A DNA stretch of 64,000 nt, from positions 186,001 to 250,000 of the forward strand of contig CASGDA010000001.1 of the NCBI GenBank assembly GCA_949300145.1. Reading direction: 5' to 3'. Every line of letters begins with the position of its first letter. Positions within the stretch are counted from its first letter, which is position 1. The notes below the pieces were generated by a model, which was not told where the DNA came from, did not search any database, and saw only the letters and a list, made by a program, of their open reading frames with translations. Positions 50,466 through 57,184 of the stretch are shown one piece after another. The translations under genes and the position numbers were made by a program. The stretch is from an uncultured Treponema sp. (GTDB taxonomy: Bacteria > Spirochaetota > Spirochaetia > Treponematales > Treponemataceae).

Positions 50466-50592
50466 AACGCATCAAGCTATGATATAATTGTGGGTAGAAA
50501 TACTGCCGATTAAACATCTTTATATAATTTGCATGATGCTTTCGGGAAGCAATTATTCGATTTGAATTCTAACCTGTCCGTCTGAGATAGTT

Positions 50593-50604
50593 GGGGGGGG
50601 GGGG
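50593..50604 (+). repeat. Poly-G tract (12 G) at the ribosome-binding position
   Basis: Twelve consecutive G residues lie 4 nt before the ATG of the EAL-domain gene (TAAA between). The tract occupies the Shine-Dalgarno position and there is no other ribosome site. Homopolymers of this length are prone to slippage during replication. Confidence 0.9.
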
Positions 50605-50608
50605 TAAA

Positions 50609-53600
50609 ATGGTTAAAGGTGAAGGTGAAAGCGTCCTGCAAAAAATACAGGAGCGGATGGAGACTGTAAATCCGCAGGATATCTGTTCCGTTTTTTTACT
50701 TTCAGTCGAAAACAAAGAGAATAAAAACGAAGGCTTCAATCTTGACAAGGTTGCGGAACGCACCACAAGCCTTCTTTCACGCTTTTTCCGGATCACGGAT
50801 ATAGTAGGGTATTTAGGTGACAACCGGTTTATCGCCTTCCTCACGGGGAAACTTCCCGGAAGCGTAATCTGGGAAAAAGCGGAAACCCTCACCGAGGCGC
50901 TCTGGCTTTCGGAACAGGACATTTCCACGGAAAACCTGGAGAACTACATAGGCGTATATGTTTTCCGGAACACGGAGGAAAAGCTGGATTCCGCCTTTCA
51001 AAAAGCGGAGCACGCCCTCCGGATGGCGAAAAAAGACCCGAACCGCAATTTCTTCATCTATACGGTAGCGGACGCTGATTCCATATTCTCCGACGCGAAC
51101 GCGGACAGCTCATCATCAACCGTCTTACGGAATTATGTTGACGAAGCGGTCAGGCTGCTTACCGTAAAGGACAAAATAGAAGCGGTGTACACAAGTCCGG
51201 CTTATCTGCGCAGGCTGACCGGAAGCAAAAAAGACGGGGAAACGGCGCAGAACGTCATAGTCCATAAAGACGACCTCGAAGCTTTTGAAAAAGACGTGCA
51301 TGACGTTGTACGCACCGGGGAACCAAAGGAAAGCGGATACAGGATTTCCGTTGACGGCTTTAACTGGACGGCGTGCCGCATCAGGCTGCTCCGGATTCCC
51401 TCAGACAAAGAAAATCCGTCGGTACTTGAAGTTTCACATAATATTTCCGGTCTGGAGCATCTCAAGTCACAATACGATGAAGAAAAAAAATGGCTGGGTT
51501 TTTTAACGGAAGAAACAGACTTTCATCTTTGGGAAGTGGACATAAAAACCCGGGTTTTCACTCCGCTGAATAGAAAAAGCCTCCCTTATAACCGGCAGAT
51601 CTGTTACCCGAACTTTCCCGAATCCCTCATAGAAAACGGCATAATACAACAGGACTCGGCAGGAAAATTCCGGGAATTCGCCCGGGAAATGCTTGAAGGC
51701 ACCAATGACGGCAGGGGCAACTTCTCGCTCCAGTACAAAAAAACGAACTGTTACAGCTGGTTCTCGGTTTCCTACCAAATGCTGTACGATGAGGAGGGAA
51801 GACCTGAAAAAGCCATAGGAATCAGCAAGAATCTTTCATCCCAGATGTATTATGGAACAAAATCCATATACAGGAGACAGATACCGGAGGATATTTACCC
51901 CAACCTGTATTTGTACGTACAGGTGAATCTGACGACAGACACGGTGGAAAAACTTCTGATTGAAGGACGCGATGTGCTTCCGGCCATACAAGGCAAGAAA
52001 TTCTCGGAAATTCCGGAAATCCTCGATGACACTATTGACTACCTGACTTCAGCGGAAGACGCCGACCGCTTCAGGAACAAATACAACCGCACGCACCTGC
52101 TGTCCGAATTTGAAAAAGGCAGGCGGTGGTTTTATGACCGCTGCCGGATTGTGAATTCAAGAGGCGAAATCCAGAAAATGTCCGTGGGTATCAATTTGAC
52201 ACGTGACACTGAAACAAACGACATCTGTCTGTTCGTATACCTGCAAAACAGGAACCGGCAGCATGAATGGGAAAATGAAATTGAATCTGAAGTCGCCTAC
52301 GATTTGAAAAGCGGTCTTTACGACAGCGCCACCGCAAAATACATGGCAAAAAAACACCTGGATAAAGAGGGATCAGGATTTTCAGCCCTTGCGGAAATAT
52401 CCATGTACGGAGCGGAAAATTTATTCAACGTTCCCGGTAAAAAACGCAGGATGCTTGAAATCCTGACAGCGCTCAATGTATTCCTCGGCTCCGATTCAAT
52501 CATGAGCAGGGACAAATCCGGCAGAATCTTTGTATTTTTCCCGGACGCCGTTTCCGCCACGACTTTGAAGCGCAGGATTGAAAACGCGTTTTATTTCACC
52601 CGGATTTCTCTGTCCGACATATACGAAATAAAATACCTGCGCTTCACCGCCGGGGTAATCTATGCGGACACAAAAAACGCGGACTACAACAGAATGAAGA
52701 ATGCGGCGGGACAGCTGACTGAATTACATGCAAACGAATCGGAGGACCGGGCCGTATTTTCCGTGATGGATTTCGGCGCGGACAACGTAAACCTCAGCGA
52801 GCTGAAAACAGAGGATTTGAATGTCCGGGAAATAAAGGTTATCAAAACTTTGAGCGAAGAAGACAAGGCGACAGCGCTTGAATGCCTCGGACTCATGCTG
52901 AAAGCCGACGACGCAGACAGTTCCGTAAACGCCGTTCTGGCAAAACTCGGGGAAAAATATCAGGCGAGCAGGGTTTACACGCTTTCACTGCCGGACAACG
53001 GGCGGACAATCATAATGCTTAACGAATGGTGCGCCCCGGACAGATTCAGCATCAAGCACAGCATCAGCGGAAAACAGACGAGCCTTTTCCCGGTGATAGA
53101 ACGGTATGCAAAAAGTCCGCGTCCGCTCATCCTTTCCACAAAAGGACAGGCAAGAACCATACAGCACAGCTTTAATTCGGACTGGTCCTATGCCCTGTTC
53201 CCGATGGAAAAAAACGGCGGCACCGAACAGTGCCTGTGCATTGAAGACGCAAAGTGCAACATGGAGCAGACCGGGCTTATTGAAGAACTCATTCCGTTTT
53301 TGGGCAGAGAAAGGGAACGTTTCCACATGACAACCCGTTCCGAAACACCGATGGAACAGATTTTCATGATTTCAAACATGCAGAAATACAAAGATAAAAT
53401 CTATTCCATTACTTCGGATAAATACACTTCCCTCGGCGTAATTTCCATCGATATACCCAGATTCAATTACCTGAAAGAGCAGAAGGGCTATGAATATGGA
53501 ACAAAATTCTTCTTCAGGATTTTTGAAATTCTTCTGAACACCTTCGGGCGTGTGCCGATTTTCCACACAAAAGAAAGTGAATTCGTCGTTTTGTGCACGG

Positions 53601-54592
53601 ATATAAGTTACAAATCATTCGTTGACCAGTATACATGGGTAAGGCATTCAATCGGAAAGGAATACGGCCAGCAGTTCCGCATAGGGTGCACCTGGTCGGA
53701 CGGTATTTTCAAAGGCGAGGACCTTGTTGAAAAAGCCCGTTCCATCATGAAAATCGCGAATCCGTCCAATATGCTTGTCATGGAACCGCCGCAAAAAGAA
53801 GAAAAGGACAGGCAGTCCGGCCAGGATACTGCAAACACCCCTGCTCAAAACAAACAGACGCAGATATTCACGATTTACCTCCAGCCCAAAATTGACATGC
53901 GTACCGGGAATCTTTCCGGTGCGGAAGCCCTTGTCCGTGTCATGGATGAAAACGGCAAACTTCTTCCGCACGGCAGCATAATAAGCGGCATGGAAGAAAA
54001 CGGAACAATCCAGAATCTGGACTGCTTTGTATTTGACAAGACGTTAAGCACCCTCTCCGAATGGAGAAGGAAAGGCTACAAGCTCAAACCGATTTCCAGC
54101 AATTTCTCCAGGAAAACGATTCTGAATCCCACCGCGCTCGCCTCCGTGCTTGCGATTTTCAGCCGGTATCCGAATGTCCCGCAGGATTTGGTGGAGCTTG
54201 AAATCACGGAAACCGCGGGAAGTTTTGAAAACAACACATTCATGGAGCTCATACAAAAGTTCGGTGAATACGGGCTGAAATTCTCGCTGGACGATTTCGG
54301 CTCGAATTACTCGAATATGTCCATGCTTGCCGAGCTTCCGTTCCATTCCGTAAAGCTGGACCGGAGCATGGTGAGAAGCATGACCGAAAATTCCGTGTCA
54401 AAAATGATGGTGCGGGATATCGCGAAAATATGCGAAAGCTGCAATATGCTGTGCATCGCGGAAGGCGTTGAAACACAGGCGCAGGTTGACTCATTGATTG
54501 AAAACGGATGTTTTTATGCGCAAGGATATTTCTACGGAAAACCCATGCCCATAGATGAATTCGAAAGGAAATATTTCCAGACAACGGTCTGA
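50609..54592 (+). CDS. Very large multi-domain sensor with degenerate GGDEF domains and C-terminal EAL phosphodiesterase
   Basis: The protein has about 1327 residues. Reading by eye, in order: a degenerate GGDEF (about 20-150), two or three PAS-like segments (about 170-560), a second degenerate GGDEF-like region (about 565-710), a GAF-like domain (about 765-905), a third GGDEF-like domain with HTKESEF in place of GGDEF (about 930-1070), and an EAL domain (about 1095-1327). The EAL motifs look complete: GAEALVR, SSNFS, ELEITET, LDDFGSNYS, VKLDRSMV, AEGVETQAQ, QGYFYGKPM. It would degrade c-di-GMP in response to signals. The start is the ATG after the poly-G tract. It is followed after 21 nt by a CheB-CheR fusion gene. 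Confidence 0.85.
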   Translation: MVKGEGESVLQKIQERMETVNPQDICSVFLLSVENKENKNEGFNLDKVAERTTSLLSRFFRITDIVGYLGDNRFIAFLTGKLPGSVIWEKAETLTEALWLSEQDISTENLENYIGVYVFRNTEEKLDSAFQKAEHALRMAKKDPNRNFFIYTVADADSIFSDANADSSSSTVLRNYVDEAVRLLTVKDKIEAVYTSPAYLRRLTGSKKDGETAQNVIVHKDDLEAFEKDVHDVVRTGEPKESGYRISVDGFNWTACRIRLLRIPSDKENPSVLEVSHNISGLEHLKSQYDEEKKWLGFLTEETDFHLWEVDIKTRVFTPLNRKSLPYNRQICYPNFPESLIENGIIQQDSAGKFREFAREMLEGTNDGRGNFSLQYKKTNCYSWFSVSYQMLYDEEGRPEKAIGISKNLSSQMYYGTKSIYRRQIPEDIYPNLYLYVQVNLTTDTVEKLLIEGRDVLPAIQGKKFSEIPEILDDTIDYLTSAEDADRFRNKYNRTHLLSEFEKGRRWFYDRCRIVNSRGEIQKMSVGINLTRDTETNDICLFVYLQNRNRQHEWENEIESEVAYDLKSGLYDSATAKYMAKKHLDKEGSGFSALAEISMYGAENLFNVPGKKRRMLEILTALNVFLGSDSIMSRDKSGRIFVFFPDAVSATTLKRRIENAFYFTRISLSDIYEIKYLRFTAGVIYADTKNADYNRMKNAAGQLTELHANESEDRAVFSVMDFGADNVNLSELKTEDLNVREIKVIKTLSEEDKATALECLGLMLKADDADSSVNAVLAKLGEKYQASRVYTLSLPDNGRTIIMLNEWCAPDRFSIKHSISGKQTSLFPVIERYAKSPRPLILSTKGQARTIQHSFNSDWSYALFPMEKNGGTEQCLCIEDAKCNMEQTGLIEELIPFLGRERERFHMTTRSETPMEQIFMISNMQKYKDKIYSITSDKYTSLGVISIDIPRFNYLKEQKGYEYGTKFFFRIFEILLNTFGRVPIFHTKESEFVVLCTDISYKSFVDQYTWVRHSIGKEYGQQFRIGCTWSDGIFKGEDLVEKARSIMKIANPSNMLVMEPPQKEEKDRQSGQDTANTPAQNKQTQIFTIYLQPKIDMRTGNLSGAEALVRVMDENGKLLPHGSIISGMEENGTIQNLDCFVFDKTLSTLSEWRRKGYKLKPISSNFSRKTILNPTALASVLAIFSRYPNVPQDLVELEITETAGSFENNTFMELIQKFGEYGLKFSLDDFGSNYSNMSMLAELPFHSVKLDRSMVRSMTENSVSKMMVRDIAKICESCNMLCIAEGVETQAQVDSLIENGCFYAQGYFYGKPMPIDEFERKYFQTTV

Positions 54593-54613: not shown

Positions 54614-57184
54614 ATGGAAAATTCAAACAAAGACGATGTTCCGCAGCAGAAAGATGAATTCAAACTGGACGAAATGTTTGTTGTCGGTGTAGGCGCATCG
54701 GCGGGAGGGCTCGAAGCCCTGCAGCAGTTTTTCCGCTCCATGCCCTCAAACACCGGTCTCAGCTTTGTCGTCATCCAGCACCTTGCCCCGGACTACAAGA
54801 GCCTGATGACGGACATTCTCTCAAAGTACACCGATATGCCGGTCATGCAGGCGGAGAACCATATGCAGGTAAAGCCGAACACCGTGTATTTAATCCCGCC
54901 GAAAAAAAACATCACTTTTCATAACGGCCTGCTGATTCTGAAAGAGCAAATACAGGGGGTTCTGAACCATCCCATTGATATTTTCTTCAATTCACTGGCT
55001 GAGGGAAAAGGGGATCATTCAATCGCGATAATTCTGTCGGGAACCGGGTCTGACGGAACGAACGGAATCAAAACCATCAAGGAAAAAGGCGGTCTCACGA
55101 TTGTACAGGATCCGGTTTCCGCGAAATTCGACGGAATGCCGAAAAGCGCGATAAGCACGGGGGTCATCGATTATGTTCTGTCGCCCCAGAAAATCGCGGA
55201 CGAGCTGATTCATTATTCAAAATACCATGTTATCATAGAACCTGAAAGTGAAAACATGCTGTTTTCTGACGAAGACAGCTTCACCCATATTTATTCAATT
55301 TTGAAAAAAGCACGGGGAATAGACTTTACAAATTACAAGAGGACGACCATCCTGCGGAGAATCGAACGCCGCATGGTCGTAACGCACACCATCAATTTGT
55401 CCGACTACGCCAAATTCCTGGACACAAACCCTGACGAAGTGAACATACTGCTCAAAGAAATCCTGATAGGCGTGACAAACTTCTTCCGTGATCCGGCGTT
55501 CTTCGAGAAACTGAAGGAAAAGGTCGTCAAGCCCATCATCCAGAACGCGGAGGAAGGCGATCCCATCAGGGTATGGAGCGCGGGATGCTCAACAGGAGAA
55601 GAAGCGTACTCGATTGCCATACTGTTCCAGGAAGTACTGGAGGAACTGGCGGTTAAACGTGACATAAAGATTTTCGCGACCGATATAGATATCCAGGCAA
55701 TCGAGCAGGCGGGACGCGGCGTATTCCAGGAAAACATCATCGACGATGTTTCCCCGGAACGGCTGGCGAAATACTTCATCAAGCGGAATGACCAGTACCA
55801 CATTTCAAAGGCAATAAGGCGGATGATTATCTTCGCGCCGCACAACATGCTGTCGGATCCCCCGTTCGGCAAACTGGATTTAATCAGCTGCCGGAACGTC
55901 ATGATTTATTTCCAGCCGGTCCTTCAGCGCACGATGTTCGCTATTTTCCATTCCGCGCTGAAACCCAGGGGATACCTGTTCCTCGGCAAAAGCGAAACAG
56001 CCAACGAATCAGCCGACATGTTCAAACCGGCCTGCAGCGTGGAAAAGATTTACATCCACAACAGCACCAAGAAGAATTTCGCCATCCTTCCGATGAACTT
56101 CAATGTGCCGACGGTTATTTCGTCGCAGCACCGTGGACGCGGATACATCGAGCCGCGGGAAACCGGTCCGGAAACGGAATCGGTGTACACCCATTTCCTT
56201 GAGAAATTCCTGCCGGCATCGCTGATTATCAATTCCTCAAACAATGTCATCCATTTCTTCGGAAACTACATGGACTACGTGTCGATTGCGCCCGGAAAAG
56301 CTTCTTTCAATCTGTTCAACATCATCCACAAAGACCTCAGTCTCGCCGCCTCCACGGCTTTAAGCCGGTGCCGTTCTGAAAACACAGCCGTCACCTACGA
56401 GAACATTCCCTACGATACGCCGGAGGGCCAGAAATTCTGCAACCTGGGGGTTCAGCCGATTCCCATGAGCGATTCCGACAGTGATCTGACGGTGATGGTT
56501 TTCAAGGATTACAAGCAGCCGGACAAAAACGGGGAAGACGGGCTTACTGAAAAATACGACATCGACATCACCGCGGCGCGCAGAATCACCGACCTGGAAC
56601 AGGAACTCCAGGAGTCCCAGTCGGATTTGCGCAAAACAATCAGCGAGCTGGAAACAGTGAACGAGGAGCTTCAGGCGGCGAACGAAGAGCTGCTGACGGC
56701 AAACGAAGAGCTGCAGAGCTCCAACGAGGAACTGCAGTCCGTCAACGAAGAATTGTACACCGTCAATGCGGAATACCAGCTCAAAGTGGATGAGCTTATC
56801 ACGCTTACCAACGACCTTTCAAACTTCCTTTCCTCCACAATGATCGGAATCCTGTTTGTTGACAGCAATCTGAATATCCGTAAGTTCACGGAATATATCA
56901 GCAGGGAATTCCAGTTGATGGATCAGGATATCGGCCGGTCAATCCAGATTTTCGCGCACAGTTTCCCCTACGAAAAAATCGTCGAAGACGCCATGAACGT
57001 CCAGAAGACGCTTACCCCCATCGACCGGGAAGTCGTAGGCACAAACGGCCGCTTTTATACGCTCAGGATTGCGCCGTACCGTACAACCGAGAACAGCATT
57101 AAAGGGCTGGTAATCACCATCATCGACAGCCTGGGTGTGGACGCGACAAATAAAACGAAAAACGCCGAGCCGCAGCCGCAGTAA
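54614..57184 (+). CDS. CheB-CheR-PAS chemotaxis-type fusion protein
   Basis: The protein has 856 residues. The N-terminal CheB methylesterase (20-200) has the triad Ser29 (GASAGG), His56 (IQHLAPD) and Asp147 (GTGSDGTNG). The CheR methyltransferase (about 230-480) has GVTNFFRDP, SAGCSTGEEAYSIA and FATDID. A coiled coil follows (about 650-725, Asn-Glu-Glu-Leu repeats such as ELQAANEELLTANEELQSSN), then a PAS domain (about 735-840). Such fusions often end in a histidine kinase; here none is present. There is no receiver domain before CheB. GGAG lies 5 nt before the ATG. It probably forms an operon with the EAL protein. Confidence 0.92.
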   Translation: MENSNKDDVPQQKDEFKLDEMFVVGVGASAGGLEALQQFFRSMPSNTGLSFVVIQHLAPDYKSLMTDILSKYTDMPVMQAENHMQVKPNTVYLIPPKKNITFHNGLLILKEQIQGVLNHPIDIFFNSLAEGKGDHSIAIILSGTGSDGTNGIKTIKEKGGLTIVQDPVSAKFDGMPKSAISTGVIDYVLSPQKIADELIHYSKYHVIIEPESENMLFSDEDSFTHIYSILKKARGIDFTNYKRTTILRRIERRMVVTHTINLSDYAKFLDTNPDEVNILLKEILIGVTNFFRDPAFFEKLKEKVVKPIIQNAEEGDPIRVWSAGCSTGEEAYSIAILFQEVLEELAVKRDIKIFATDIDIQAIEQAGRGVFQENIIDDVSPERLAKYFIKRNDQYHISKAIRRMIIFAPHNMLSDPPFGKLDLISCRNVMIYFQPVLQRTMFAIFHSALKPRGYLFLGKSETANESADMFKPACSVEKIYIHNSTKKNFAILPMNFNVPTVISSQHRGRGYIEPRETGPETESVYTHFLEKFLPASLIINSSNNVIHFFGNYMDYVSIAPGKASFNLFNIIHKDLSLAASTALSRCRSENTAVTYENIPYDTPEGQKFCNLGVQPIPMSDSDSDLTVMVFKDYKQPDKNGEDGLTEKYDIDITAARRITDLEQELQESQSDLRKTISELETVNEELQAANEELLTANEELQSSNEELQSVNEELYTVNAEYQLKVDELITLTNDLSNFLSSTMIGILFVDSNLNIRKFTEYISREFQLMDQDIGRSIQIFAHSFPYEKIVEDAMNVQKTLTPIDREVVGTNGRFYTLRIAPYRTTENSIKGLVITIIDSLGVDATNKTKNAEPQPQ

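Follow-up and report, generated by a model that had tools for sequence, protein, structure and literature searches.

A conserved poly-G tract upstream of an EAL/CheB-CheR operon in an uncultured Treponema as a candidate contingency locus

The known treponemal poly-G switches lie mostly on surface proteins of Treponema pallidum, an organism that is hard to grow and manipulate. In this species 76% of 17 tested poly-G tracts vary in length (PMC7864442). At TP0126, an OmpW homologue, the tract lies between the -35 and -10 elements and transcription is best at a spacing of 17 nt, according to the summary given in PMC7864442, which cites Giacani 2015. For tprE/G/J, 8 or fewer Gs are permissive, while the activity of tprL is higher at 8 than at 10 (PMC7864442). 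A poly-G tract in the promoter spacer also sets the transcription level of Neisseria porA, as that work is described in PMC7864442. Phase variation of c-di-GMP phosphodiesterases is known from Clostridioides difficile, where stochastic variation of pdcB and pdcC diversifies several phenotypes (PMC9286219).

The window analysed here is a 64,000-nucleotide stretch from an uncultured Treponema sp. It contains a G12 homopolymer tract (50593..50604, + strand) followed directly by TAAA (50605-50608) and an ATG (50609..50611, +). This ATG opens the gene for a large protein of 1327 aa with a GGDEF-like N-terminal domain and a C-terminal EAL phosphodiesterase domain (50609..54592, +; Pfam EAL, 1.4e-51). 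The catalytic residues (EAL, N, E, DD, K, E, Q) are all present, and the motifs can be aligned with those of the MorA phosphodiesterase (structure 4rni). A CheB-CheR-PAS fusion gene with its own Shine-Dalgarno (SD) sequence (AAGGAG) begins 21 nt 3′ of the EAL gene stop (54614..57184, +). With the EAL catalytic motifs kept and cheB-cheR this close downstream, the pairing of an EAL protein with a coupled CheB-CheR gene, as given in the preliminary description of the locus, is supported. Counting the tract-associated protein, the window genome encodes four EAL proteins. A second one, of 783 aa, carries a C9 in its C-terminal codons (L044 4077-4157), and about 60 nt beyond that C9 there is a G10 in codons 2-5 of a short ORF, beside a convergent gene. 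The leader upstream of the tract-associated EAL gene gave no Rfam match above threshold, on which ground a riboswitch in the leader was rejected.

We considered whether a run of this length could be due to chance. The G8 word count in the window is not significant (5 observed versus 4.46 expected in shuffles, all five within one run), because dinucleotide shuffles keep GG frequent. We rejected calling this count enriched on a shuffle test that stood by itself, and used the run-length distribution in its place. G/C runs were counted in 192 kb of the window genome, with tracts of at least 9 excluded, and the distribution was extrapolated genome-wide. Runs of length 4, 5, 6 and 7 numbered 764, 156, 21 and 2, respectively. 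From these the extrapolation predicts 0.87 runs of at least 9 across the genome, where 19 are present, 0.13 runs of at least 10 (15 present) and 0.003 runs of at least 12 (3 present). Long G tracts therefore constitute a special class in this genome. The G12 run is not a chance occurrence, and has the form expected of a TP0126-type spacer locus, which calls for some 8 or more Gs without a break, in excess of chance.

Conservation of the tract was followed in a genus sample of three genomes. In the sister species G001, the EAL orthologue shares 48% protein identity with the window protein and carries a G10 in the corresponding place, after which come TAAAA and GTG as the start codon. The tract measures 12 Gs in the window versus 10 in the orthologue, and the distance from tract to start is 4-5 nt in both. 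Retention of the tract at the same spot at 48% protein identity argues that it is old. Six of the 11 residues at positions 6-16 of the frame opened by ATG 50609 are identical to the G001 orthologue. G002 gave no orthologue match at the cut-offs used, and an EAL relative in G005, at 25% identity, is too distant to inform the 5′ end. The upstream neighbour of the EAL gene is pyrG in the window and an smc-like gene in G001, both judged from reading frames. A scan with PyrG places the organism no more precisely than near Treponema, with matches at 78% (L081) and about 73% (T. lecithinolyticum and T. socranskii). The CheB-CheR fusion of the window is represented in G001 by two genes, which overlap at residue 201 in an ATGA, stop with start (L052 3001-3007, minus). 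Another G10 of G001 lies towards the 3′ end of the EAL gene, 72 nt before the cheB ATG (L052 3679-3688, minus). A change in its length alters the EAL C-terminus and shifts the EAL stop with respect to the SD of cheB.

The tract had previously been read as the ribosome site of ATG 50609, with no other SD upstream. In position this is confirmed, since the tract is the sole SD-like element before the ATG, lying 4 nt upstream, and the orthologous tract is likewise placed; for this conserved start it would act as an SD-like element. The calculated duplex of the tract with the anti-SD (-10.2 kcal/mol) is stronger than that of the cheB-cheR SD (-8.5 kcal/mol), and compares with an average of -2.6 kcal/mol and a 5th percentile of -6.9 kcal/mol for random 20-mers. 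Lengthening the run stepwise from G6 to G14 leaves the value of -10.2 kcal/mol unchanged, and the last G always stays at the same distance from the ATG. Slippage should therefore not change the SD, and the earlier proposal that it alters the ribosome site finds no support in either pairing energy or SD-to-start spacing. The same constancy favours a slippery but largely neutral SD, where any G run of at least 6 makes a good ribosome site and length changes are without consequence; the fixed distance between start and tract, and the keeping of the tract at two different lengths in two species, also fit. We nevertheless regard this explanation as unlikely, given that five or six Gs would suffice, that runs so long are otherwise almost absent, and that the tract belongs to a selected-looking repertoire.

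Length could still matter at translation initiation through RNA structure, for example a G-quadruplex formed only at 11 or more Gs, and not through SD strength. The tract would then act as the SD of ATG 50609 on a transcript from TGATATAAT, an extended -10-like element upstream and independent of the tract (50480..50488, +), which is recognised by consensus only and overlaps a TTGATA-16-TATGAT arrangement matching at 10/12. ViennaRNA with quadruplexes enabled predicts such a structure at G11-G15 and none at G6-G10, although two-layer quadruplex energies are uncertain and the folding is a model prediction. RNA quadruplexes in 5′UTRs alter E. coli translation in a size-dependent manner, at least as reported in PMC11087576, and in both species 4-5 nt separate the tract from the start, with coding conservation beginning just 3′ of the tract. 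SD pairing and ordinary RNA accessibility, in contrast, are flat across tract lengths, and we find this explanation rather improbable. Little weight can be given to a length-gated ribosome site derived from the same modelling, where 10 or fewer Gs would leave the SD open and 11 or more would place a quadruplex over it, such that slippage would switch translation of the phosphodiesterase and CheB-CheR. If true, it would represent translational homopolymer phase variation kept in two treponeme species.

The preliminary description further proposed a frame switch from an alternative TTG start (50591..50593, +; 1333 aa). This TTG is indeed in frame and overlaps the first G of the tract, but it is a weak candidate, with upstream pairing of only -2.7 kcal/mol and stops close upstream in every frame. 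Ahead of the window tract, the open frames contain no other start codon. The situation differs in G001. Here an ATG lies 53 nt ahead of the G10 tract, has a fair SD (AAAGGAAAGAACATG) and opens a frame that runs through the Gs (L052 7722-7660, minus). At G10 this frame meets a stop just after the tract; with G8 or G11 it would continue into EAL as a fusion. A translational frame switch, in which an upstream start reads through the tract and the number of Gs determines access to the EAL frame, thus works on paper in the sister species, and several other tracts of the window genome split genes by frame in a like manner. For the window itself, where only TTG 50591 could provide such a start, we consider it a very doubtful explanation.

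Split genes were also seen at individual loci. In an N6/N4 DNA methyltransferase gene (PF01555) the DPPY motif is immediately followed by a G10 (L038 4096-4105) that splits the frame; the two parts would join at G9, making this a candidate phase-variable methyltransferase. An acyltransferase-like gene (PF01757) is split by a tract of nine Gs in one species (L037 3844-3852) and of ten in the other (L066 1982-1991). A further G9 (L042 3489-3497) divides a gene into two frames that would join at G10, the downstream one having a weak match to asparagine synthase.

Tract length differs in 5/6 flank-matched pairs elsewhere (9/10, 12/9, 10/13, 10/14 and 9/10, with one pair equal). One of the 9/10 pairs is L037/L066, in which the adjacent flanks are identical. 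In the 10/14 pair the difference arises from substitutions beside the tract, the total length being unchanged.

Across 274 family genomes, G9-TANAAT occurs at 163 sites versus 3 for the reversed control. TTGACA, matched at 5/6 or 6/6, lies 12-24 nt upstream of the -10 in 52/69 distinct sites read with their flanks, and a strict promoter-spacer test was passed by 12/49 genus tracts and by 0 in the reversed control. TTGACA-polyG-TANAAT is a family-wide promoter architecture, of the T. pallidum TP0126 type. The analogy drawn earlier with treponemal poly-G tracts is borne out to the extent that the window tract is one of many such long tracts in this genome and across the family. Examples with TTGACA, a short spacer, G9 to G17 and TANAAT are L036, L065, L071, L075, L076, L166, L172-L176 and L203-L207, and poly-G promoters of the family often stand before genes whose good SD follows 34-63 nt further on. 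In the window genome they precede lipoprotein-like genes (L036, L048, L039) and an outer-membrane-like gene (L032), as named by eye from signal peptides. We do not claim poly-G as a general SD class across the family: many G9-N(3-7)-ATG matches are a -10 with a G after it (TATAATG, TAGAATG), and in the per-genome counts the reversed control equals or exceeds the motif in several genomes. The window genome is a draft of 20 contigs, and short reads or a mixed population can miscount a homopolymer by one or two. However, with the tract at the same place in the independent genome G001, its position internal to a long contig, and flanks that form a consistent promoter architecture across many genomes, an assembly or sequencing artefact is hardly credible.

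At the window tract, a -10-like hexamer TAAAAT (5/6; 50605..50610, +) lies directly 3′ of the Gs, as in the G9-TANAAT sites of the family, and here overlaps the ATG. It was absent from the preliminary description. A weak -35-like hexamer CTGAGA (50582..50587, +) is placed exactly 17 nt before TAAAAT at G12; it matches at 4/6, below the strict 5/6 test, and a match of this quality at spacings 16-18 has an estimated chance probability of about 11%. Since the tract is followed by TAAAAT, the usual -10 after family poly-G, promoter spacing is a more likely route of action than the ribosome site. Our best reading is therefore a hypermutable poly-G contingency tract on the EAL/CheB-CheR operon, acting most likely via promoter spacing, to which we tentatively assign a probability of about 0.4. 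Phase variation in any form is plausible, with odds slightly in its favour. We infer that the window tract may vary in length within a population, that the tract promoter may be active, and that c-di-GMP may be affected.

We postulate that tract length sets the distance between the -35-like hexamer and TAAAAT, which at G12 would be the optimal 17 nt, as in TTGACA-polyG-TATAAT promoters. Slippage by one or two Gs would change transcription of the operon, and c-di-GMP breakdown would in turn vary between cells. A transcript started from the tract promoter would begin after ATG 50609 and would need to use a later start. One possibility is an in-frame CTG aligned with an ATG of the orthologue (50636..50638, +), CTG starts in spirochetes being discussed in PMC7864442. 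The other is an in-frame ATG preceded by AGGAG (50657..50659, +), which is not conserved in the G001 orthologue; its distance from the tract, 52 nt, is a common one for the family poly-G promoter class. Residues 6-16 look coding, given the six identities, and an upstream promoter such as TGATATAAT at 50480 would therefore be needed for the full-length protein. The conservation suggests that these residues are translated from such a promoter, and both transcripts, tract-proximal and upstream, may exist. Besides this coding conservation, several points speak against the promoter-spacing reading. First, the putative window -35 matches at only 4/6. Second, the G001 tract ends in TAAAAG with no recognisable -35 upstream; promoter-like elements are not conserved between the window and G001, although the tract is, and the two species appear to share the tract but not its flanking logic. 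Lastly, the start-adjacent T. pallidum tract of tp0986 (at -7) is among the minimally variable or invariant ones (PMC7864442).

If the promoter-spacing reading is true, a conserved tract on the operon of a c-di-GMP enzyme would render a whole behavioural programme stochastic. The family-wide TTGACA-polyG-TANAAT arrangement makes such switches listable, and testable in cultivable relatives of T. pallidum, with the G9-TANAAT sites of the family serving as a catalogue of candidate phase-variable promoters. Among described systems, the window tract resembles TP0126 in having, in a treponeme, Gs that run straight into a -10-like hexamer, a putative spacing of 17 nt corresponding to the best one, and a potentially misleading annotated start near the tract, following the account of TP0126 in PMC7864442. 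It differs from TP0126 in lying on a signalling enzyme operon and not on an outer membrane protein, and in its weak -35-like element. With tprE/G/J and tprL it would share the modulation of promoter activity by poly-G length reported for those genes (PMC7864442), whereas the Gs of these genes are found ahead of the transcription start or covering part of the -10, not in the spacer, and the gene products are surface antigens. Neisseria porA, as described in PMC7864442, offers the likeness of a poly-G in the promoter spacer by which the transcription level is set, but belongs to another phylum and encodes a surface porin. The likeness to C. difficile pdcB and pdcC is stochastic variation of a c-di-GMP phosphodiesterase (PMC9286219), which there arises from site-specific promoter inversion and not from homopolymer slippage. 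A phase-variable c-di-GMP phosphodiesterase is thus already known from C. difficile by another mechanism (PMC9286219), and what makes the window tract notable is the signalling operon on which it lies.
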